From assembly GCF_003383615.1 (NCBI RefSeq), contig NZ_QNUL01000002.1:434001-498000 (forward strand): a stretch of 64,000 nucleotides of DNA, given 5' to 3'. Each line of letters starts with the position of its first letter. Within the stretch, counting starts at the first letter, position 1. This document shows positions 4,331 to 29,862 of the stretch, in pieces. The position numbers were made by a program, and so were the translations under genes. The DNA is from Dyadobacter luteus. GTDB taxonomy: Bacteria; Bacteroidota; Bacteroidia; Cytophagales; Spirosomataceae. The notes beneath the pieces are model-generated. The model saw only the letters and a list, made by a program, of their open reading frames with translations, had not been told where the DNA came from and did no database searches.

Positions 4331-5359
4331 TCAGACATGACTTAGTTCCAGTACCTCATTTATTTGCACAGTGCGTCCCTCCGTCAATGACTTCATAGCC
4401 GCGATACCAATGGCAGTTGCCATAAGCCCGTCATGCGCGTCTACCGGTGAAGGTTTGTCCTGAAGTACGCAGTCGATGAAGGATTTCAGACAAACACGGT
4501 AAGCGGTCTCGTATCTTTCAAGGAAAAAATGGAGCGGCAAAGCGCTGTGTCCGCCGGCGCTGTCGAAGTGTATCAGCGAATCGGTGGTATTGTTTTCAGC
4601 TTTAGCCATGCCTTTTGATCCGAAAATTTCCAGACGCTGGTCGTAGCCATATACAGCTTTCCTACTGTTGTCTATCACGCCAATTGCCCCGTTTTCGAAG
4701 GTCAACACGATTACTGCCGTGTCAATATCCCCGAATTCTTTGATTTCAGGGTGAATCAGCGCATCACCTTTGACAAATACTTCTTTTACTTCGCTGCCCA
4801 CGATGTAGCGAGCCATGTCAAAGTCATGAATGGACATGTCCAGGAATATACCCCCTGATATTTTCAGGTATTCTACAGGTGGTGGTGCCGGGTCGCGACT
4901 GGTGATTCGAAGAATATGCGGATCGCCGATTTTATTATTTTCCACAAGATTGCGGACGTTGCTAAAATTCGCATCGAAGCGACGGTTAAAACCCAGCATC
5001 AGTTTTACGCCGTTTTCAGCAACGGCTTTTTCTGCTGCCAGAATGGCTTCAATGGTAACATCGAGCGGTTTTTCACAAAATACATGCTTTCCCTGTTCCG
5101 CGGCTGCCACTGTGTAAGGAACATGGTACGGAGTAGGAGAGCAGATGATTACAGCTTCTACATCCGGATGGTTGATCACCTCGTAGGCGTCTGTTGTTAC
5201 TTGTTTTACGCCAAGACGTTTGGCGAATTCATGTGATGCTTCCGATACATCCGATGCAATGATTACCTCGGCATCAGGCATGTGGTGAAGCAGGTTACTC
5301 AGGTGTATCTGGCCAATACGGCCCAGACCAATCACACCGGTTTTAAGTTTTCGTGACAT
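4331..5359 (-). CDS. iolG: myo-inositol 2-dehydrogenase IolG (Gfo/Idh/MocA family)
   Basis: An NAD-dependent oxidoreductase that converts myo-inositol to scyllo-inosose, the first step of the pathway. The 342 residues show the dinucleotide motif GLGRIG at 11-16, the family motif EKP at 96-98 with the catalytic Lys97, and the Asp174-x3-His178 pair in FLDMSIHDF that is typical of inositol dehydrogenases. Length matches the family. It lies between iolA and the symporter gene in the operon. A related activity on D-chiro- or scyllo-inositol cannot be excluded from sequence. ATG start at 5359. Confidence 0.92.
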   Translation of the reverse strand: MSRKLKTGVIGLGRIGQIHLSNLLHHMPDAEVIIASDVSEASHEFAKRLGVKQVTTDAYEVINHPDVEAVIICSPTPYHVPYTVAAAEQGKHVFCEKPLDVTIEAILAAEKAVAENGVKLMLGFNRRFDANFSNVRNLVENNKIGDPHILRITSRDPAPPPVEYLKISGGIFLDMSIHDFDMARYIVGSEVKEVFVKGDALIHPEIKEFGDIDTAVIVLTFENGAIGVIDNSRKAVYGYDQRLEIFGSKGMAKAENNTTDSLIHFDSAGGHSALPLHFFLERYETAYRVCLKSFIDCVLQDKPSPVDAHDGLMATAIGIAAMKSLTEGRTVQINEVLELSHV

Positions 5360-5368
5360 TGGGGTAAG

Positions 5369-5480
5369 TTAGTTTAGGGATTTGGTCAAAGGGCATGGGG
5401 CAAAGGGTATGGGGTTCGAGTTAGGTGGGGCGGGTGTTTTCACCCTATTCCCCAGGCCCGAAACCCTGTGCCCTAAAACT
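5369..5480. repeat. nested stem-loop repeat in the iolA-iolG spacer
   Basis: A G-rich stretch (GGGCATGGGG, GGGTATGGGGTTCG) is followed by a C-rich complement ending CGAAACCCTGTGCCCTA, so the two sides can pair over about 110 bp. A perfect GGGTG-TTTT-CACCC hairpin lies inside at 5432-5445. The right arm overlaps the iolA stop codon (5473-5475). Confidence 0.6.
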
Positions 5481-6939
5481 TGCGGTTCCATTCTTTCAGC
5501 CAGCGTTCTATAACGACTTTTGTTTGTGTGAAAAACTCTACAGCATGTTTGCCCTGACCGTGCAAATCGCCGTAGAAGCTGTCTTTCCAGCCTGAGAACG
5601 GGAATTGTGCCACAGGAGCTGCAACACCTATATTGATTCCTATATTTCCGGCCTCGGCTTCATGACGGAATTTACGCGCGTTCAGACCACTGCTGGTAAA
5701 GACACAGGCCATGTTGCCATAACGTCCGGAATTGATAAACCGGATTGCTTCCTCGATTGTATTGATATGGACGAGACTCAAAACCGGACCGAAGATTTCA
5801 GTAGCTGCCAGTTCGCCATCCAAAGGAATGTCTTCAATGATCGTAGGGGCGATGAAGTTACCATTCTCAAAACCAGGAATGTTTGGGTTTCTTCCGTCAA
5901 CGATAACACGGCCGCCTTCCTTAATTCCTTTATCAAGTAGGTTGTTCACACGGTTTTTGCTTTCCGCCGTAATGACCGGACCCATTTGAACTTCACTGTC
6001 CAGACCAAATCCGGTTTTACGGGTTTTCGCTGACTCGACCAGGCTTTCTGTAATATCTTTATGATCACCGACAGTGATAATTGTAGATGCTGCCAGACAG
6101 CGCTGACCGGCACATCCGTACACGCTGTCGATCACGATCTGTGTAGTCATGTCTATATCTGCATCAGGCAATACTACCACCGGATTTTTTGCCCCTCCCT
6201 GTGCCTGTACGCGTTTTCCATGCGCCGCACCTTTGGAATAGACATACTTTGCAACATTTGAAGAACCCACGAAACTAATACCCTTAACGACAGGATGTTC
6301 CAGAATCGCATCCACCACTTCACGAGCTCCCTGCACAAGTCCGAGCACACCTTTGGGCAAATCCAGCTGATCCATCAGACCCACAATTTTCGTCATGGTA
6401 AGTGGTACCTTTTCAGATGGTTTGATGATGTAGCTGTTTCCGCAAGCCAGTGCATAAGGCAGAAACCAGAAGGTGATCATACCCGGGAAGTTGAAGGGCG
6501 CTATACATGCACATACCCCCAATGGCTGACGGATCATATACTCGTCAATTCCTTTTGCGATGTCTTCCGAGAATTCACCCTGCATCATGGCAGGCATGCC
6601 GCAAGCGTTCTCTACATTTTCAATTGCCCGTACCATTTCCGCTTTCGCTTCAAGGAAAGTCTTACCTGATTCGAGTACGATGGTTTTCGCTATATCATCC
6701 AGGTTATCTTCAAGCAGTGTTTTCAGTTTGAAAAGATACTGAACGCGCTTGGAAACAGGGGTGTTTTTCCATTCCTGGAAACCTTCGTGGGCTGCTTGCG
6801 CGGCATCTGCCACATCCAGGGCATTGCCCGAAGGAACCTGAGCAAGCACTTCCTGGCTGGCAGGATTGACTACGTTCAGGAATTGTTCAGAGCGGCTATC
6901 CACCCATTGCCCATTGATATAATTCTTTAATTTTTCCAT
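5473..6939 (-). CDS. iolA: (methyl)malonate-semialdehyde dehydrogenase IolA/MmsA
   Basis: An aldehyde dehydrogenase that oxidises malonate semialdehyde to acetyl-CoA, using CoA and NAD, as the last inositol-pathway step; it may also act on methylmalonate semialdehyde from valine breakdown. The 488 residues have PFNFPG around Asn150, IIKPSEKVP at about 171-179, and the nucleophile Cys281 in AGQRCLAAS. At the position where ordinary aldehyde dehydrogenases carry the general-base glutamate the sequence is QGGAKNP, as is typical of the CoA-acylating MMSDH group. It lies between iolC and iolG, with repeat-bearing spacers of 171 and 113 bp. ATG start at 6939. Confidence 0.92.
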
Positions 6940-7110: not shown

Positions 7111-8124
7111 TTAAAATCCTCCTCTATTCTCCACAAATGCCATTACCTCTTCGTTGGTCGGCATAAAATTGGCACAGCCTTCTCTGGTTACGATGATTGC
7201 ACCGCAGGCATTTCCCATGCGGACAGATTTGTATAAATCCCAGTTGTTCAGCAGACCGTAAGAAAAACCTGCACAGAATGCATCACCGGCTCCAAGTACG
7301 TTCAACACTTCAACAGGGAAACCGGGAACACGTATTTCTTCCTTATCTGGCTGGAAGATCGAAGCTCCCTCTTTACCTCTTTTCACCACAAGTGTTTCAA
7401 CACCCGAGCTCATAATTTCCTGAATGGCACTGTCAATATTTCCTCTGATTTCAGGAGCAGAAATTTGTTGATGCTTGATCAAAAGTTGCTCTTTGTCTGT
7501 CAGATAGGTAGCCAGAATTTCTTCTTCCGTGCCAACCACGATGTTGAACTTGCTCAAAGCAGCACGCAGCGTAATTCCGAATGAACGGGGATCATCCCAC
7601 TGATCGGCACGAAAGTCGATGTCCAGAAGCGTTTGTACATTGTTTTTCTTGGCCAGTTCCAATGCATAGAACATGGCAGTGCGGCTAGGGTCTTTGCTGA
7701 ATGCAGTTCCAGAGAAGGCAGCAGCCTTGAAATCTGCGAACGGAATGGCATCAACGTGATCAATATTCAGGTTGATATCTGCGCAGTTTTCACGGTAGTA
7801 AACCAGAGGAAAACGGTCGGGGGGCTCAATGCCCAGCACTACCGCAGAACTTCTGGTCCCATCGATGGTGGGTACGTACTCAGTAATTACGCCTTCCTTG
7901 TCGAGAAAATGTTTGATAAAATTGCCGACCTGATCAGGGCCTATACCTGTTAGTATCGCCGTGTTCAGTCCAAGACGTTTTGCTCCGGTCGCAATATTAA
8001 GCGGACAACCGCCAACAAAAGCGTTAAAGGATGATATCTGTTCAAACGGACTTCCGACGTTAGCGGAATACAAGTCTATAGACGAGCGCCCCAAGGTCAA
8101 AAGGTCAAATTTTTTGTTGGACAT
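7111..8124 (-). CDS. iolC: 5-dehydro-2-deoxygluconokinase IolC (PfkB family)
   Basis: An ATP-dependent sugar kinase that phosphorylates 2-deoxy-5-keto-gluconate. The 337 residues begin MSNKKFDLLTLGRSSIDLY, which is characteristic of IolC; an upstream in-frame ATG at 8148 would add eight residues encoded inside a repeat element and is unlikely. The anion-hole/catalytic-base motif GAGDAFCAGF starts at about residue 278, and the substrate-side VGGCPLNIA lies near residue 37. The gene is separated from iolB by 160 bp holding two REP-like repeat copies. Confidence 0.92.
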   Translation of the reverse strand: MSNKKFDLLTLGRSSIDLYSANVGSPFEQISSFNAFVGGCPLNIATGAKRLGLNTAILTGIGPDQVGNFIKHFLDKEGVITEYVPTIDGTRSSAVVLGIEPPDRFPLVYYRENCADINLNIDHVDAIPFADFKAAAFSGTAFSKDPSRTAMFYALELAKKNNVQTLLDIDFRADQWDDPRSFGITLRAALSKFNIVVGTEEEILATYLTDKEQLLIKHQQISAPEIRGNIDSAIQEIMSSGVETLVVKRGKEGASIFQPDKEEIRVPGFPVEVLNVLGAGDAFCAGFSYGLLNNWDLYKSVRMGNACGAIIVTREGCANFMPTNEEVMAFVENRGGF

Positions 8125-8139
8125 AGTATGGCGTTTTAC

Positions 8140-8170
8140 CGTCTGCACGCTTCTTCAGCGGGCTGAACGT
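8140..8170 (+). repeat. REP-like repeat R1, copy 1
   Basis: The unit begins GTCTGCACGCT and ends AGCGGGCTGAACG, around a TCTTC loop. It can fold into a 10-bp imperfect hairpin. It touches the upstream side of iolC. Confidence 0.65.
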
Positions 8171-8209
8171 TTATAAAATTATCTGTCACTTAGCATTCAG
8201 ACTGCATTA

Positions 8210-8240
8210 CGGTCTGCACGCTTTTTATCGGGCTGAATGT
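8210..8240 (+). repeat. REP-like repeat R1, copy 2
   Basis: Same unit as copy 1, reading GGTCTGCACGCT then ATCGGGCTGAATG, with a mutated inner stem. Flanking fragments with CATTCAGACTGCA (8194-8206) and TTCAGACTGCATGG (8284-8297) suggest a larger composite repeat that reaches the iolB stop codon. Confidence 0.65.
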
Positions 8241-8284
8241 AACGCAGTAGTTGTGCTCTTCGCATTCAGACCACCTGTCGGTGT

Positions 8285-9157
8285 TCAGACTGCATGGCCA
8301 TTCATCTCCGCAGTTACAATTGGCAACCTTGGATCAGCACCTTTCCATGACCCGTAGATCCAGTCATGATCCGGATCAGAGGTATTAGCCAGAGACTGAT
8401 CACTTCCCGCCAGGAAATTCAGGTAATAGACATTATAACCATGTCCTGCTACCACAGGATGATATCCTTTCGGAATGAGTACGGCCTCATTGTGCTTCAC
8501 CCTCACGATTTCGTCCAACGAGCGGTCATCAGTATAAACCTGCTGTATGGCATAGCCCTGAGGTTTGTCAATTTTATAGAAATATATTTCTTCCAGATTT
8601 GCTTCCAGTAATGTACCGTCTTCGGCTACTTTCCGTTCGTCGTGCTTGTGGGCGGGGAAGGAACTCCAGTTGCCGGAAGGCGTATAAACCTCAACGCAGA
8701 CAATTTTGTGACAGTCAAAACCAGGTTCGAGTAAGCTGTTAATTTGACGGTTTGCGTTGTCCCCACCACGATACTCTATCGCCGCTTCCTCCGGGCGTTT
8801 CATACGGGGAGGGTGGTCTTCATCGCTTTTCACCCAACAAATCGCAATGTCCGTATCAGGTGATTGAGCTGTCAAAATAAAGTCCGTATTGCGGGAGAGG
8901 TACATTGCATGGCCAATACCGGTGAAAACGTCTTTTCTCCCATTGCCTGTTTCCCAAACTTGCCCGTCGGCCTCCACTTTAAAATTTCCACCCAGCAATA
9001 CGATGCAATACTCATATTCACCGGTGTGTCTGCTAATTTGTTCGCCTGTATCCAGTACTTTCGCTTCAAAGTTCAGATAAGTCCAGCCAGCCTGTTCACT
9101 GGTAAGAGAATGGTAGTTTTTAGTGTCTGAAGATGGCTTGATCAGTAAATCACTCAT
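8285..9157 (-). CDS. iolB: 5-deoxy-glucuronate isomerase IolB
   Basis: A bicupin isomerase converting 5-deoxy-glucuronate to 2-deoxy-5-keto-gluconate in the cytosol. The 290 residues from MSDLLIKPSS include the cupin metal-binding stretch FPAHKHDERKV followed by EEIYFYK, conserved in IolB. An in-frame ATG at 9211 would add 18 residues with no family similarity, so 9157 is preferred. It is the first gene of the operon, divergent from the LacI-family gene, with a palindromic operator at 9235-9248 in the shared spacer. Confidence 0.92.
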   Translation of the reverse strand: MSDLLIKPSSDTKNYHSLTSEQAGWTYLNFEAKVLDTGEQISRHTGEYEYCIVLLGGNFKVEADGQVWETGNGRKDVFTGIGHAMYLSRNTDFILTAQSPDTDIAICWVKSDEDHPPRMKRPEEAAIEYRGGDNANRQINSLLEPGFDCHKIVCVEVYTPSGNWSSFPAHKHDERKVAEDGTLLEANLEEIYFYKIDKPQGYAIQQVYTDDRSLDEIVRVKHNEAVLIPKGYHPVVAGHGYNVYYLNFLAGSDQSLANTSDPDHDWIYGSWKGADPRLPIVTAEMNGHAV

Positions 9158-24577: not shown

Positions 24578-25324
24578 ATGAATAAAAGACGGGAATTTCT
24601 GATAAATATGCTTGTCGGCGGACTTGCTGCCGGTTATGGCAGTGAGGCACTGGCGTCTGTAACAAGTCCTACTGTAATACCTGCCCGTGTGAAAATTCTC
24701 TTCCAGGGAGATTCTGTAACAGACGGAAACCGCAGCCGCAATAGTGACTGGAACCACGTGATGGGCCATGGTTATGCCTATACTATAGCAAGCAAGCTCT
24801 GGCATGATTTCCCCGACAAAGGTTTCTACTTTTACAATAGAGGAGTGAGTGGCAATCAGGTAGGTGATCTTGCGGCACGTTGGCAGAATGATACCATTGA
24901 TATTAAACCCGACTGGCTGAGTATTCTGGTTGGGATCAATGATACCGAAGCATATATAAAAGGCAATCGTGAGCTGACGGCAGAAAGCTTTGAAAATACT
25001 TACAGAAAGCTGCTGCAGCAAACTCGCGAGCAATTACCTGATACGAAACTGGTGCTTGGTGAGCCATTTATCCTGCCGGTCGGGAGAGTGAAGGATCGTC
25101 TGGCATTGTATGAATCTGAGGTAGGTAAAAGACAGAAAATCGTCAAAAAATTGTCTGAGGAATTCGGGGCACTGTTTATTCCCTACCAGTCGGCTTTTAC
25201 GAAGGCTTTGGATAAGGCTTCGGCAGACTACTGGATTTGGGATGGAATACACCCTATGCCCGCCGGACATGAACTGATGGCCAGATTATGGCTCGAAATC
25301 GCAGGGCCGGAATTGGGGATCTGA
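24578..25324 (+). CDS. SGNH/GDSL hydrolase
   Basis: 248 residues with an N-terminal export-like signal (MNKRREFLINMLVGGLAAGYG). SGNH blocks are ILFQGDSVTDG, NRGVSGNQ, LVGINDTE and DGIHPMPAGHE. It is similar to lysophospholipase L1/acetylxylan-esterase-like enzymes that deacetylate carbohydrates. It is the second gene of the operon with the 23754 esterase. Confidence 0.85.
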   Translation: MNKRREFLINMLVGGLAAGYGSEALASVTSPTVIPARVKILFQGDSVTDGNRSRNSDWNHVMGHGYAYTIASKLWHDFPDKGFYFYNRGVSGNQVGDLAARWQNDTIDIKPDWLSILVGINDTEAYIKGNRELTAESFENTYRKLLQQTREQLPDTKLVLGEPFILPVGRVKDRLALYESEVGKRQKIVKKLSEEFGALFIPYQSAFTKALDKASADYWIWDGIHPMPAGHELMARLWLEIAGPELGI

Positions 25325-25332
25325 TCAAAAGG

Positions 25333-25358
25333 GCAGGACTGACGTTAATCAGTCCTGC
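25333..25358 (+). terminator. hairpin after the SGNH hydrolase gene
   Basis: GCAGGACTGA and TCAGTCCTGC form a perfect 10-bp stem with the 6-base loop CGTTAA, 8 bp after the stop. The T-tract is weak. Confidence 0.6.
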
Positions 25359-25376
25359 TGCTAATCAAGATCAATT

Positions 25377-25404
25377 TTTGCCGCGTACGGTTGCTTTATT
25401 TTTG
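25377..25404 (+). promoter_or_regulatory. Bacteroidota-type promoter for the 25435 gene
   Basis: TTTG (25377-25380) and TATTTTTG (25397-25404, matching TAnnTTTG) are separated by 16 bp, 30 bp before the ATG. The spacing is slightly short but both boxes match the known -33/-7 consensus. Confidence 0.6.
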
Positions 25405-25434
25405 GATCTTCAAATTTATTGCTTCCGGCAAATC

Positions 25435-27234
25435 ATGATCCAGACAAATCAAACGCATACATTTCATATCCCCGTTTTAGGACTGGGGTATTCTGTTGAT
25501 ACGCCCGTCAAAGTATCCCCTTTCGGTATTTCATCTGTTGCCTCTATCGTCGATGACGAGATGATAGAGCGTATGAGAAAACACCATACCCTTCAGGCTG
25601 GCGAGGAGTATATTCAAATACCGACCTCCGAAGAAGATTTCAGAAGTAAACGGATTACTGGTTACCTTAATCTGATTGACCGGATTATTGATAAACACTT
25701 TCAGGCTCTGAAAAATGAGCCCTTTGCACCCGGATCAGATATAAATCGTTATTTCGATCTGTTGCCTGAAAGCTCACCGCTGAAAGCTGCATATAATGCT
25801 ATGATTGAAATGGAGGACGGTGCGGAAAAACAGCAATTGCAGCAGCAGCTCAGGTCACAGATATCCAAAGGAGCCATTGATGTAAACATCATGTCGAAGG
25901 TCGATAAGCTCAATAAAGATGTTTTCGGTCAGCAATTGGATGATCGTTTCTCGGATGCATCCGCGGCGTTACGTGGCTTTGCCAACAGCACGCTGCAGTC
26001 CTCACTTGTCCTATCGGCGGGTATGAATCCGCGCCTGTACAACTATCTTGATCAGTTCGATGTGTTCTTTCCGGATGCAGATGGGAATCTGAGCAAAAGG
26101 ATAATTTTGAAAGTGAGCGATTTTCGTTCTGCTTTTATCCAGGCAAAGTATCTGGCTAAAAAGGGCATCTGGGTTTCAGAGTTTCGTATAGAGTCTGGTT
26201 TGAACTGCGGTGGTCATGCTTTTGCTACGGAGGGATACCTGCTCGGGCCTATTCTGGAGGAATTCAAGGCGAAACGCCAGGAAATGCTTACTGATCTTTT
26301 TCAACTTTATCAGACTGCCCTTGAAGCCAGGGAAATTATATTGAACAAAATTCCGGATTTACGCATCACCGTTCAGGGCGGCATAGGTACGGCAGATGAA
26401 AATAGTTTTCTGCTGGATCATTATCAGGTAGATGCGACAGGTTGGGGGAGTCCTTTCCTGCTGGTTCCTGAAGTTACCAGTGTGGATGAGCAGACATTAG
26501 CCGATCTGGCTTCAGCAAAACAGGAGGATTATTATGTAAGCAACTCGTCACCGTTAGGCGTGCTGTTCAACAATTTCAAACAAAGCAGCGCAGAAAAACA
26601 ACGATTGGAGAGGATCGCCAAAGGCCGTCCCGGCAGCCCTTGTAAAAAGAAATACCTTGTATCCAATACCGAATTTACACAGGAACCGATCTGTACAGCT
26701 TCAAGAGAATACCAAAGGCTGAAAATCAAACAGCTTGAAGCCCTGGAGCCAAGGCCCGCGGATTTTCAGCAACAGTTTGATGCCATTACGGAGAAACTAT
26801 GTTTGTGTGAAGGGCTGAGTACATCCACTTTGCTTAAAAATAAACTGTTATCCCCAAGAGAAAATCACGCGGTATCTATCTGTCCGGGACCGAACCTTGC
26901 CTGGTTTTCGAGGGTATATTCACTGGACGAGATGGTGAAACACATTTATGGAAAGGTGGATCTGCTCAACCATGTGAGTCGCCCGAATATGTTCATCAAC
27001 GAGCTGAATCTGTATGTGGAGCATTACCGTAAAGATTTGGAGATGCATGCTGCGGCTCTGAATGATAAAAAGAAGAAATACCTTCAGAAGTTTAAAGACC
27101 AGCTGCTGGTGGGTATTGAATATTATAAGGAGCTCGTGCCTCAGCTAGGCAATCAGACCAAGGCTTACAGGGATGAAATGTTTGCACAGTTAAGCGCGAT
27201 TGAAAGGCAGTTGCTGGGTGTGGAGGCATGTTAA
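25435..27234 (+). CDS. large unrecognised protein, possible flavin-type TIM-barrel enzyme
   Basis: 599 residues from MIQTNQTHTFHIPVLGLGYS. A longer frame from 25288 would overlap the preceding gene and start before the promoter, so it is rejected. Not recognised with certainty. The pattern FGISSVASIVDD near the N-terminus, SGLNCGGHAF (about 261-270), and ITVQGGIGTADE followed by VDATGWGSPFLL resemble phosphate- and substrate-binding loops of FMN-dependent barrels such as nitronate monooxygenase or glutamate synthase relatives. Cysteines cluster later: GSPCKKK, EPICTAS, EKLCLCEG, SICPGPN. The C-terminus is charged and helical. No signal peptide is seen. It ends 67 bp from the convergent HNH gene. 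Confidence 0.6.
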   Translation: MIQTNQTHTFHIPVLGLGYSVDTPVKVSPFGISSVASIVDDEMIERMRKHHTLQAGEEYIQIPTSEEDFRSKRITGYLNLIDRIIDKHFQALKNEPFAPGSDINRYFDLLPESSPLKAAYNAMIEMEDGAEKQQLQQQLRSQISKGAIDVNIMSKVDKLNKDVFGQQLDDRFSDASAALRGFANSTLQSSLVLSAGMNPRLYNYLDQFDVFFPDADGNLSKRIILKVSDFRSAFIQAKYLAKKGIWVSEFRIESGLNCGGHAFATEGYLLGPILEEFKAKRQEMLTDLFQLYQTALEAREIILNKIPDLRITVQGGIGTADENSFLLDHYQVDATGWGSPFLLVPEVTSVDEQTLADLASAKQEDYYVSNSSPLGVLFNNFKQSSAEKQRLERIAKGRPGSPCKKKYLVSNTEFTQEPICTASREYQRLKIKQLEALEPRPADFQQQFDAITEKLCLCEGLSTSTLLKNKLLSPRENHAVSICPGPNLAWFSRVYSLDEMVKHIYGKVDLLNHVSRPNMFINELNLYVEHYRKDLEMHAAALNDKKKKYLQKFKDQLLVGIEYYKELVPQLGNQTKAYRDEMFAQLSAIERQLLGVEAC

Positions 27235-27301: not shown

Positions 27302-28159
27302 TCACAGCGTGCCCTTTAAAAACTGTTCAAACAAAAGTTTGACAGCATTTTTTTGCTTGGGCTCCAGGGAATTTGCAATAAACAGGTCAAATTTATAAAA
27401 CAAGAAATATCCAAAGCGGGAATACTGCTTGACCGGCGATTGTAGTCCAGCTAGTTTTTGGAACACTAACTTTATCGCATACCGACATTGTTCCGTAGTC
27501 ACTTTCTGTTCCAGAACATCCGTTAGTATGGTTTTAATATCGTCTCTGAACTCATTAAGTATTGATAATCTTTTAAAAACCAGCTCTTTTCTGTTAAGAC
27601 CACAAATTTTTATTGTTTCTAACGCCTGTGGAGTTCTGCCAACAATTTCCGCTTTTTCGTTATACAAAAAGTGATCTTCAACAATGTCAATTTCCGGATG
27701 TAATAAGAAGGTCCCTTCACTATTTAGAATTAAAGAATTAGCTAGTCTGTATTCGTCTGTTGGCAGTCCGTCGATATCTAATTGAGGTTCTGTCAGTCGG
27801 GTATTGAGAATTGGAAACCGATTTCTCTTCTTATTGTTACACTTGCTGCAACTAAGTATCAGGTTGCTCCATTCGTAAGCAAGCCAGTAATATCCCAGGT
27901 GGCTGGAATCTTCGGTAACCTTTGCTTTTGGTCTATAGTGTTCTACCTGCATGGGAGCTCCGGCAGCAGTGTCTGTTTCGCAGTAGGCACACTTGGATTG
28001 ATATAGTAGCTCCAGTTCCTGAAGAGTTGTATCCCTGTAAACCTTTGAAGCAAAAGCATGTTTATTCTTAGTGTTGATCGAATCAAGAATGAGATTATTC
28101 CTGTCTGAAGCAACCAGTAAGGCTGGAGAAATTTCGAAATCTTTCTTTACGCTAATCAT
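27302..28159 (-). CDS. HNH endonuclease, PtuB-like (TIGR02646-type)
   Basis: 285 residues. The zinc/HNH core is CAYCETD (Cys57, Cys60), VEHYRPK (His74), GYYWLAYEWSNLILSC, and CSKCNNKKRNRFP (Cys104, Cys107, Asn108). This order, with VEH(Y/F)RPK and WLAYEWxNL, is the pattern of PtuB nucleases of Septu and retron-Ec78 systems. It starts 9 bp after the ATPase stop, so the two form an operon. It probably cuts nucleic acid when the ATPase senses infection; this role is inferred from the family. No reverse transcriptase is nearby. Confidence 0.8.
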   Translation of the reverse strand: MISVKKDFEISPALLVASDRNNLILDSINTKNKHAFASKVYRDTTLQELELLYQSKCAYCETDTAAGAPMQVEHYRPKAKVTEDSSHLGYYWLAYEWSNLILSCSKCNNKKRNRFPILNTRLTEPQLDIDGLPTDEYRLANSLILNSEGTFLLHPEIDIVEDHFLYNEKAEIVGRTPQALETIKICGLNRKELVFKRLSILNEFRDDIKTILTDVLEQKVTTEQCRYAIKLVFQKLAGLQSPVKQYSRFGYFLFYKFDLFIANSLEPKQKNAVKLLFEQFLKGTL

Positions 28160-28168
28160 TTCTATACC

Positions 28169-29713
28169 CTATTTACTTTTAGCTTCAAAAAGTTCATCAG
28201 GGAATTGTTGATTGCTCTGCTCAAAGTCTTTTAAATAATTATCAACCTGATCATTTTTAATCATTTCAGAGAAAGTCTCTTCCGTGCGAACTGCGGTAAT
28301 GTCAGCAGACTGAGATGAAAAAATGTCGTCCATATCGAAAATGCCTGAGGTTAACAGTAGATTGGGAGTCAGTGATTTCAGATCGATTTCAACCCGCTGT
28401 ATGGTGATTCCTTCTTCTTTTGTTCTATTCACTTTAAGTATCACTGAGTTTTTAGGAGCACCCAATAAAGGTATAGGGCTATGCGTGGATACAATAAATT
28501 GAATACCGGGAAATACCTCTCCAAAGAGTTCAGGAATCTGTTTCTGTAACTTTGGGTGCCAGTGCAGATCGAGTTCGTCAATAATTACAATACCCTTTAA
28601 CTTCGTCGGATCTGTCACCTCTTTCTGACTTTCAGATAATCTTACAATCATGTCTCCAGCCATTCCCAGAATGCTACGGAAACCTGAGGCAATTTTTCCA
28701 AATGGTAGCGGTTCGAATTGCTGCTCATCATCCTGAATATCTTTTTCGATATACTCAATCCTGTTGCTGGTGGAATTGAAACGTACATCCGACAGGTTTG
28801 GAACCAAACGCAGAAATGCTTTGCGAACCAACTTGAAGCGATTGTCATTTTTGAGAGACCAAATAACCAGTTCACTTTCTATATTGCGAAGTACGCCGTC
28901 TGTTCTGAAAAGACTATATAAGGTTCCGTTTTTTTGAGCTGCATCTGTTGTACTCGCGTCTACCTGCATATTCAATCTTACCGGACCATAAGCCGCCAAA
29001 TGAGCGAGTGGAGATGGGTTTATCTTAAAATCATTGATCAGATTCTGAGTTTCACTTTTGTACTCCACCTTAATACGTGAGTTGGAGTCGGGAGCATAGT
29101 CATATGAACCATCTTTTGTCCCATGTAAGCCCAATACAATAGATTGCAGAATTGTACTTTTACCAAAGCCGTTTTCTCCGACCAAAAACACCCAACGCGT
29201 GTCTACCGGAAGGTTCTCTATTGTTGCCCGTTTGATGCCCTGAAAGTTTGAAACGGAAAGACTTTTGAGACAGTAATGGAGTATATCGCTCTTTTCTGAA
29301 AAGGTATCAGGTTCATTTTGGAGGAATTGCTCGTCTTGTTCAAGCTTGAAGAGGTCTTTCAGATTTACATGAGATAGGTCTTCGTAATCAGTTAACAGTG
29401 CCAGCCATTGATTGAACTCAACCATAATTCGGTCTTTGTACATTTCAGTGAACTCCTCCTTAGAGTCGTTGACTGATGTAGTAGGGTCCAGAGGAACAAT
29501 ATTGGCAGAGTAGAGTGGCTTTCCTTGAAAGATTCTATGGGATATAATGCTGAATTCCAGATCTTCCGATTTTCTGTAACTTACCTTGAATCCAAAATTG
29601 TCTCTTGGGCTCAAATCCAAATTCAAATGACTTTTTTCAATTGCTTCCTTAAGAAATTGGGAAATTTCTTTAAGCTCTTTTGTCACCTGTAACGGAAGAC
29701 TCTTAGCATTCAT
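28169..29713 (-). CDS. AAA/ABC-type ATPase, PtuA-like, with extra N-terminal domain
   Basis: 514 residues from MNAKSLPLQV. The SMC/OLD-like ATPase begins near residue 148 (CLKSLSVSNFQGIKRATIENL), with Walker A GENGFGKST at 179-187, a signature-like IASGFRSIL near 341-349, Walker B IVIIDEL with Asp379-Glu380, and the H-loop His411 in VSTHSPIP. Before it lie about 145 residues with no motif I know (FGFKVSYRKSEDLEFSI, VEFNQWLALLTDYEDLS). The C-terminus after about 440 is acidic. The ATG at 29713 is used; nine upstream in-frame codons begin with TTG inside a likely -7 box. It is the first gene of a cassette with the HNH nuclease. Confidence 0.78.
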   Translation of the reverse strand: MNAKSLPLQVTKELKEISQFLKEAIEKSHLNLDLSPRDNFGFKVSYRKSEDLEFSIISHRIFQGKPLYSANIVPLDPTTSVNDSKEEFTEMYKDRIMVEFNQWLALLTDYEDLSHVNLKDLFKLEQDEQFLQNEPDTFSEKSDILHYCLKSLSVSNFQGIKRATIENLPVDTRWVFLVGENGFGKSTILQSIVLGLHGTKDGSYDYAPDSNSRIKVEYKSETQNLINDFKINPSPLAHLAAYGPVRLNMQVDASTTDAAQKNGTLYSLFRTDGVLRNIESELVIWSLKNDNRFKLVRKAFLRLVPNLSDVRFNSTSNRIEYIEKDIQDDEQQFEPLPFGKIASGFRSILGMAGDMIVRLSESQKEVTDPTKLKGIVIIDELDLHWHPKLQKQIPELFGEVFPGIQFIVSTHSPIPLLGAPKNSVILKVNRTKEEGITIQRVEIDLKSLTPNLLLTSGIFDMDDIFSSQSADITAVRTEETFSEMIKNDQVDNYLKDFEQSNQQFPDELFEAKSK

Positions 29714-29862
29714 ACTTTTCAATTTTAGCTTCAATCCCAAAAATACAAATATCCGTCATTAACACACAGGAAGTTGAAACCCCTTTATTTCAAACGACAG
29801 GGCATTATTGGCTCCACACACCAAAAATTTCCCCTCAGAGCTGTTTTTTACTTTCTGTCACT

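Follow-up and report, generated by a model that had tools for sequence, protein, structure and literature searches.

For the gene pair at positions 27302 to 29713 of the Dyadobacter luteus window (the whole stretch of 64,000 nucleotides that was analyzed), we favor, with a probability of about 0.5, a two-gene type I Septu system in which the ATPase PtuA carries an exchangeable recognition module that would gate the PtuAB core. We refer to this module as N145, a label coined in this analysis for the front domain of the window ptuA. The pair, the parts of PtuA, and a neighboring open reading frame (ORF) are placed as follows.

25288 to 27234, plus strand: ORF of 648 aa, convergent with ptuB; no Pfam match above the cut-off
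27302 to 28159, minus strand: ptuB, HNH nuclease of 285 aa (PADLOC PDLC00316, HNH residues)
28169 to 29713, minus strand: ptuA, Septu-type ABC ATPase of 514 aa with an extra N-terminal domain (PADLOC PDLC00287, fold match to 8eea_C)
28172 to 29275, minus strand: PtuA ATPase core, residues 147 to 514 (PADLOC, Pfam, fold comparison, and motifs)
29276 to 29365, minus strand: low-confidence, probably flexible linker, residues 117 to 146 (pLDDT blocks of 65 to 42 from residue 111 on)
29366 to 29713, minus strand: N145 domain, residues 1 to 116, predicted helix, strands, and helix (AlphaFold2 segment model)

The ptuA start was set at the ATG at 29713 (514 aa) rather than at the TTG at 29740 that opens the longest mechanical ORF (523 aa), because homologues start at the same M..(K/Q).xP position. 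PtuA displays a Walker A motif (GENGFGKST at residue 179), a Walker B motif (IVIIDE at 375), a signature-like ASGFR at 342, and STHSP at 409. Homology to the core sets in at residues 146 to 149, a point on which the Pfam, PADLOC, PDB-sequence, and fold comparisons agree; an earlier interpretation made from the letters of the window, hereafter the sequence-only reading, had placed the onset near residue 148, and every comparison covering the region bears this out. The tight coupling to an HNH gene that it described is likewise found in the ORF coordinates, with a gap of 9 bp (28160 to 28168). In the HNH protein, Cys57, Cys60, Cys104, Cys107, His74, and Asn99 are present, and the same residues are invariant in 66 of the 66 partner PtuBs of at least 180 aa.

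The profile matches, the predicted fold, and the order of the genes identify this pair as a type I Septu (PtuA-PtuB), in agreement with the Septu-like assignment first made. PDLC00287 (PtuA1) matches the ATPase over residues 147 to 502 (E 6.1e-80), and PDLC00316 (PtuB1) matches the HNH protein over residues 1 to 280 (E 3.8e-72). The full-length PtuA model, of moderate confidence (mean pLDDT 64.4), superimposes on the E. coli Septu PtuA (8eea_C) with a Z of 21.0 (282 residues, 3.5 Å); retron PtuA proteins mostly scored between Z 18 and 21, with two rows at 16.5 and 14.9, and the best row other than PtuA was the cohesin Smc1 head (Z 16.9). In this fold comparison, residue 1 of 8eea_C aligns to residue 147 of the window PtuA, and the front domain is therefore additional to the E. 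coli architecture. Type I Septu is distinguished from type II by an operon without a reverse transcriptase gene. Since none was seen adjoining ptuA-ptuB, as judged from the ORF list rather than from a reverse transcriptase profile, we assign the pair to type I Septu and not to a retron.

Other assignments were considered and rejected. For retron type I-A, the NCBIfam models NF041760 and NF041761 gave 130.3 and 52.4 bits against cut-offs of 500 and 150 bits, respectively, and the ORF list holds no unexplained ORF of reverse transcriptase size adjoining the pair; only about 200 bp separate the ptuA start from the next gene. For OLD, Gabija, and PARIS, neither protein retrieved a Toprim domain from Pfam at E values up to 1. 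For ptuXYZ, the adjoining partner is PtuB, and the Pfam matches of the neighbors include neither DUF262 nor PIN-BECR.

The segment preceding the core matches no family in PADLOC or NCBIfam when residues 1 to 146 are searched alone, and in Pfam it retrieves only Sec20 (E 0.0048; 17.2 bits against a cut-off of 27). A front segment lacking any known match had been claimed, and the profile search indeed gave no database match above cut-off. With the segment alone and 10 relatives as input, AlphaFold2 yielded a model with a mean pLDDT of 80.9, ten-residue blocks reaching 87 to 97 over residues 11 to 110, in which one helix, four to five strands, and a second helix precede the low-confidence linker. 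Because the segment is common to 11 distinct relatives (among the best 80 of 218 core relatives plus genome hits) and is predicted to fold, we regard it as more than chance: the structure prediction argues for a real folded domain of about 115 aa followed by a linker, and the extra N-terminal domain originally proposed thus finds support.

The nearest solved fold is that of frataxin/CyaY (Z 8.3, 89 residues, 3.2 Å, 8% identity), close to the level expected of a common arrangement, followed by the TriTu immunity protein (Z 7.2, 76 residues, 2.5 Å), YjbR (Z 6.0), and the MotA C-terminal domain (Z 5.8). Foldseek returned no match at E 0.001 in the PDB, nor was there one at this threshold among viral structure models, where the best was Gp643 of Bacillus phage G (E 0.05). 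The predicted fold of N145 is accordingly taken as a common alpha-beta arrangement and not as a family assignment; the frataxin-like match is too weak to use, and the fold search offers no hint of function. A worn-down copy of HNH or PtuB was rejected, given the predicted helix-strands-helix order and the clustering of N145 apart from HNH fronts. The extra segment had been suggested to be a sensor or an effector. The second half of this suggestion fell, since residues 1 to 146 match no catalytic domain in PADLOC, Pfam, or NCBIfam, while the first is plausible, and we put the chance that the front domain is a sensor at about one half.

What suggests an exchangeable phage detector is that relatives carry many different domains at the front position. 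Starting from 96 loci, 8 with a core E value above 1e-17 were not used and 4 duplicates were removed, leaving 84; three more (L050, L058, and L079), having no Walker A that fitted the search pattern, were dropped, which left 81 distinct relatives. This sample, the best 80 of 218 core relatives plus genome hits, is biased towards the window query, and within it at least 60 aa precede the core in 56 of 81 relatives. PtuA ATPases had been said to start near the core, which does hold for the E. coli Septu PtuA; it fails as a rule, given these 56 relatives and the extended PtuAs included in the PADLOC models. Extensions in general are thus a feature of ordinary PtuA proteins, while the N145 domain is not. 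In the other 25 relatives, including one truncated by the end of its contig, fewer than 60 aa precede the core. A PtuA core apparently need not have a front domain, because 22 of the 24 relatives counted as having none still keep PtuB alongside. Across all 81 loci, ptuB adjoins ptuA in 74, is missing in 4, and would lie beyond view at contig ends in 3.

The 56 fronts fall into an unnamed family of about 190 aa (14 relatives), which is the one in PDLC00287, N145 (11), PtuB-like HNH domains (7), leucine-rich repeats (LRR; 6), two groups of 3, a pair, and ten singletons, among them a tetratricopeptide repeat (TPR) and a pentapeptide repeat front. Each of the six LRR fronts matches Pfam LRR_4 above its cut-off; L064 and L070, with no Pfam match, were counted in the tree as a group of their own and not as LRR. 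Below the Pfam cut-offs lie NERD-like (E 0.049), STAND-like (best E 0.0051), and EAD11 (24.0 bits against 26) matches. The TPR locus (L093) and L029 are cut at contig ends. The EAD11 match occurs in a 962-aa PtuA (L034:144-3029, plus strand) that also has pentapeptide repeats before the core. Near one frontless ptuA (L048), two ptuB-like genes are found, at 5125-6006 and 7778-8728 on the plus strand. Viral contigs gave 46 distant ATPase relatives.

On a quick tree of the cores, in which two long HNH rows (L005 and L014) joined directly, 17 front labels require 25 changes, against a least possible 16 and a shuffled mean of 51. The labels are therefore clustered on the tree, yet they change repeatedly: the minimum numbers of changes imposed by its starred branches are 4 for the 190-aa family, 4 for HNH, 6 for the absence of a front, and 2 for LRR. 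Cores that share 77% identity bear an HNH front in one case (L032) and a TPR front, cut at the contig end, in the other (L093), and the frontless L016 shares 74 to 75% core identity with L041 and L054, both of the 190-aa family. N145 itself forms a single clade (SH-aLRT 99), so it is not seen hopping between PtuA cores.

Seven relatives (L005, L014, L032, L047, L065, L084, and L092) have the PtuB-like HNH front fused to PtuA, six of them with a separate ptuB adjoining. The catalytic His is lost in 3 of these 7 fused fronts, whereas it is kept in 66 of 66 partner PtuBs. These lost histidines would fit front domains that serve as decoys or guards when phages deploy inhibitors of Septu. We consider this explanation very improbable for the window, as the argument covers HNH fronts only and N145 resembles no part of PtuAB. 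The same seven fronts could indicate that the front position lies close to PtuB, and N145 might then be a structural domain aiding PtuA assembly or PtuB docking. Such a role appears distinctly unlikely to us: frontless relatives keep PtuB, and docking surfaces should be conserved together with the core, while the front is the less conserved part in every comparable pair.

The N145 profile matches 16 of 222 genomes of the host family at E 0.01. Thirteen are strong matches (E 1.3e-19 or better), each lying within an open frame of 500 to 573 aa, and three are weak (E 0.002 to 0.009). At the same threshold, 7 of 395 class genomes match, namely, the window, L159 (E 1.8e-6), and five at 0.001 to 0.007, about the level of chance; at E 0.001, 2 of 395 phylum genomes match, the window and a second genome whose weak match is interrupted by stops. 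Whether the extra domain always travels with the HNH gene had been posed as a check, and N145 indeed lies beside an HNH gene at 11 of 11 distinct loci, the HNH gene being split in one (L002/L025). One relative of N145 stands alone, outside the host family.

L159:1501-2205, plus strand: stand-alone N145 relative of 234 aa, residues 1 to 138 matching N145

In addition to the E value given above, which was obtained for that genome with 395 searched, hhalign assigned this match a probability of 92 over 100 columns. The C-terminal part of the protein differs and looks helical, with no ATPase; PADLOC has no match for the protein, nor does Pfam above its cut-off. This single case suggests, at the level of sequence comparison, that N145 is a portable module. 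The L159 protein is possibly another defense protein using the same sensor.

The upstream neighbor of ptuA is an MFS transporter gene that is present in 48 of 48 genomes of the genus; among the 30 of 48 genus places returned, the window and L188 (Leaf189) are the only two where ptuA adjoins it. In four relatives (L166, L167, L170, and L174), the 648-aa ORF lies directly before the transporter gene, without ptuA. Since the homology of these four to the window ends at 27157 to 27213 and restarts at 29821 to 29843, around the pair, the extra part in the window is ptuA plus ptuB, a two-gene insertion. At another genomic place in D. frigoris (L025), the 648-aa ORF also adjoins ptuB (75% identity over 594 residues), and given this arrangement, a link between the ORF and ptuAB is possible. 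Near ptuA, however, a search of 81 loci matched only L025 and a shorter copy, L002; the ptuA locus of the same-genus Dyadobacter sp. Leaf189 (L018) is among those without the ORF. Because it is absent near other ptuA loci and found without ptuA in the four relatives, we regard the 648-aa ORF, with some doubt, as a neighbor and not as part of the system. Scans of the locus found 4 promoter sites against 6.2 in shuffled sequences and 0 terminators against 1.7. In D. frigoris, ptuB is split into two frames of 187 and 90 aa (L025:5555-6416, plus strand, identical with L002:3055-3916), through either a frameshift or a sequencing error.

Within the N145 family, the front is less conserved than the core in 55 of 55 pairs, with mean identities of 30% and 64%, respectively. 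Across front types, 62 of 62 pairs that qualified for comparison (a front in both members and cores at least 58% identical) behave likewise, and 16 of these lie outside the N145 family; in the group of L004, L082, and L088, fronts are 27 to 45% identical and cores 81 to 87%. Two Runella loci, L021 (R. defluvii) and L108, have cores that are 98% identical, differing at 9 of 369 residues. In their N145 domains, the two ends differ at 3 of 34 and 5 of 39 residues and the middle at 25 of 51, with a dN of 0.38 and a dS of 1.0 in the middle, compared to 0.010 and 0.15 in the core. Moreover, 54 of the 106 nucleotide differences between the two genes fall inside one stretch of 51 codons, against a maximum of 29 in 2000 shuffles. 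This 51-codon block was probably exchanged by recombination, because dS is raised too; for the same reason, the block does not speak directly for selection. The exchange rests on one pair, since the other close pair, L019 and L020, has no such block (dN 0.018 and dS 0.075 in the front, 0.012 and 0.137 in the core).

Low conservation alone can equally mean weak constraint. N145 might then be a dispensable remnant, an explanation with which its poor conservation and the retention of PtuB by relatives without an extension are in keeping. We nevertheless find it hardly probable, the least so of the explanations considered: in both close pairs the front domain has a lower dN than dS, the predicted model is confident, and N145 has been kept as an open frame without stops, with strong matches in 13 of 222 genomes of the host family.

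If N145 is the recognition module that we favor, the following course of events may be envisaged. At rest, PtuA, an SMC/RecF-like ATPase, would assemble with PtuB and keep the HNH nuclease switched off. N145 would bind a phage cue (the likeliest candidates being a phage protein and a phage-altered host component), and the resulting change would travel via the linker to the ATPase and activate PtuB. Active PtuB would then cut nucleic acid, either DNA or host tRNA, both of them reported targets of other PtuAB pairs, and the infection would be stopped. That the module senses, that its cue is of phage origin, and that it gates PtuB are the parts of this scheme that we infer.

Several published observations frame this scheme. 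PtuAB of retron-Eco7 degrades tRNA-Tyr and is neutralized by the reverse transcriptase together with msr-msd, and published PtuAB is toxic when unrestrained (PMC11555353). In Ec83, msDNA restrains PtuAB until phage infection (PMC12948488), and the Septu of E. coli strain B88 needs the PtuA Walker motifs (K43 and D316) and the PtuB HNH motif (PMC13096335). The literature passages covered do not state how stand-alone (non-retron) Septu detects phages. As retron PtuAB is held by msDNA, a stand-alone Septu would need another gate, for which a variable fused front is a natural candidate.

The presence of LRR, TPR, and pentapeptide repeat domains at the position of N145 in relatives was counted for a recognition role. 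In a different proposal, N145 is a substrate-specificity domain that positions the target (tRNA, a DNA end, or the ribosome) for PtuB, its variation reflecting changing targets. PtuAB targets do vary, with tRNA-Tyr reported for retron-Eco7 and not for Eco4, and nicked DNA for a Septu (PMC11555353), and the MotA domain that N145 weakly matches (Z 5.8) binds DNA. We hold the proposal to be unlikely, since the E. coli Septu PtuA, which begins at the equivalent of window residue 147, acts without such a domain, the nuclease PtuB is conserved, and repeat fronts fit protein binding at least equally well.

Returning to the recognition module, we extend the idea tentatively, and with somewhat less than an even chance, beyond the window. 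In Bacteroidota and some other bacteria, Septu may be a modular receptor system with NLR-like logic, in which a conserved PtuAB core would be combined with sensors that can replace one another at the front (N145, LRR, TPR, pentapeptide, STAND-like, dead HNH copies, and others). In this picture, N145 would represent a new sensor fold, its variable sheet being exchanged in blocks between strains to keep pace with phage change.

An undescribed defense variant had been suspected at this locus. N145, with no database match above a cut-off, would be the new element, while Septu and extended PtuAs are already known. The extension as such is not new, because the PADLOC PtuA1 models, whose descriptions read simply "AAA ATPase domain," already cover PtuAs that begin with other domains. 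For the pattern of many unrelated, repeatedly changing PtuA fronts, we found no description: the literature matches listed include no account of variable PtuA N-terminal domains, although an earlier description is possible. If the PtuA front is an exchangeable sensor, phage recognition by Septu becomes directly testable via front swaps, with the near-identical Runella pair and other relatives as natural swap partners. Defense catalogues that file such proteins as one PtuA would then hide the part that sets specificity.

Among known systems, type I Septu (PDLC00287 and PDLC00316) shares with the window the ATPase core, the HNH partner, the gene order, and the fold. In PDLC00287, too, about 195 positions precede the core, but this front belongs to another family and does not align to N145; L015 and L067 match almost the full length of that model. 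PDLC00292, PDLC00288, and PDLC00291 resemble the window PtuA in combining the core with an added N-terminal domain, which in their case is a PtuB-like HNH domain and not N145. The effectors of type I-A retrons (Ec78/Eco7 and Ec83), termed "Septu type II" in PADLOC (PMC8565338), have a homologous ATPase and HNH protein, but their PtuA chains carry about 60 residues before the core compared with 146 in the window. In the putative defense operon ptuXYZ, the ATPase PtuY is PtuA-like and the partners are DUF262 and PIN-BECR proteins (PMC11980606), whereas the window partner is an HNH PtuB. Finally, PARIS (AriA/AriB) is similar in outline, an ABC ATPase sensor freeing a nuclease upon binding of a phage protein (PMC12409363); its effector is a Toprim nuclease, while that of the window pair is HNH.
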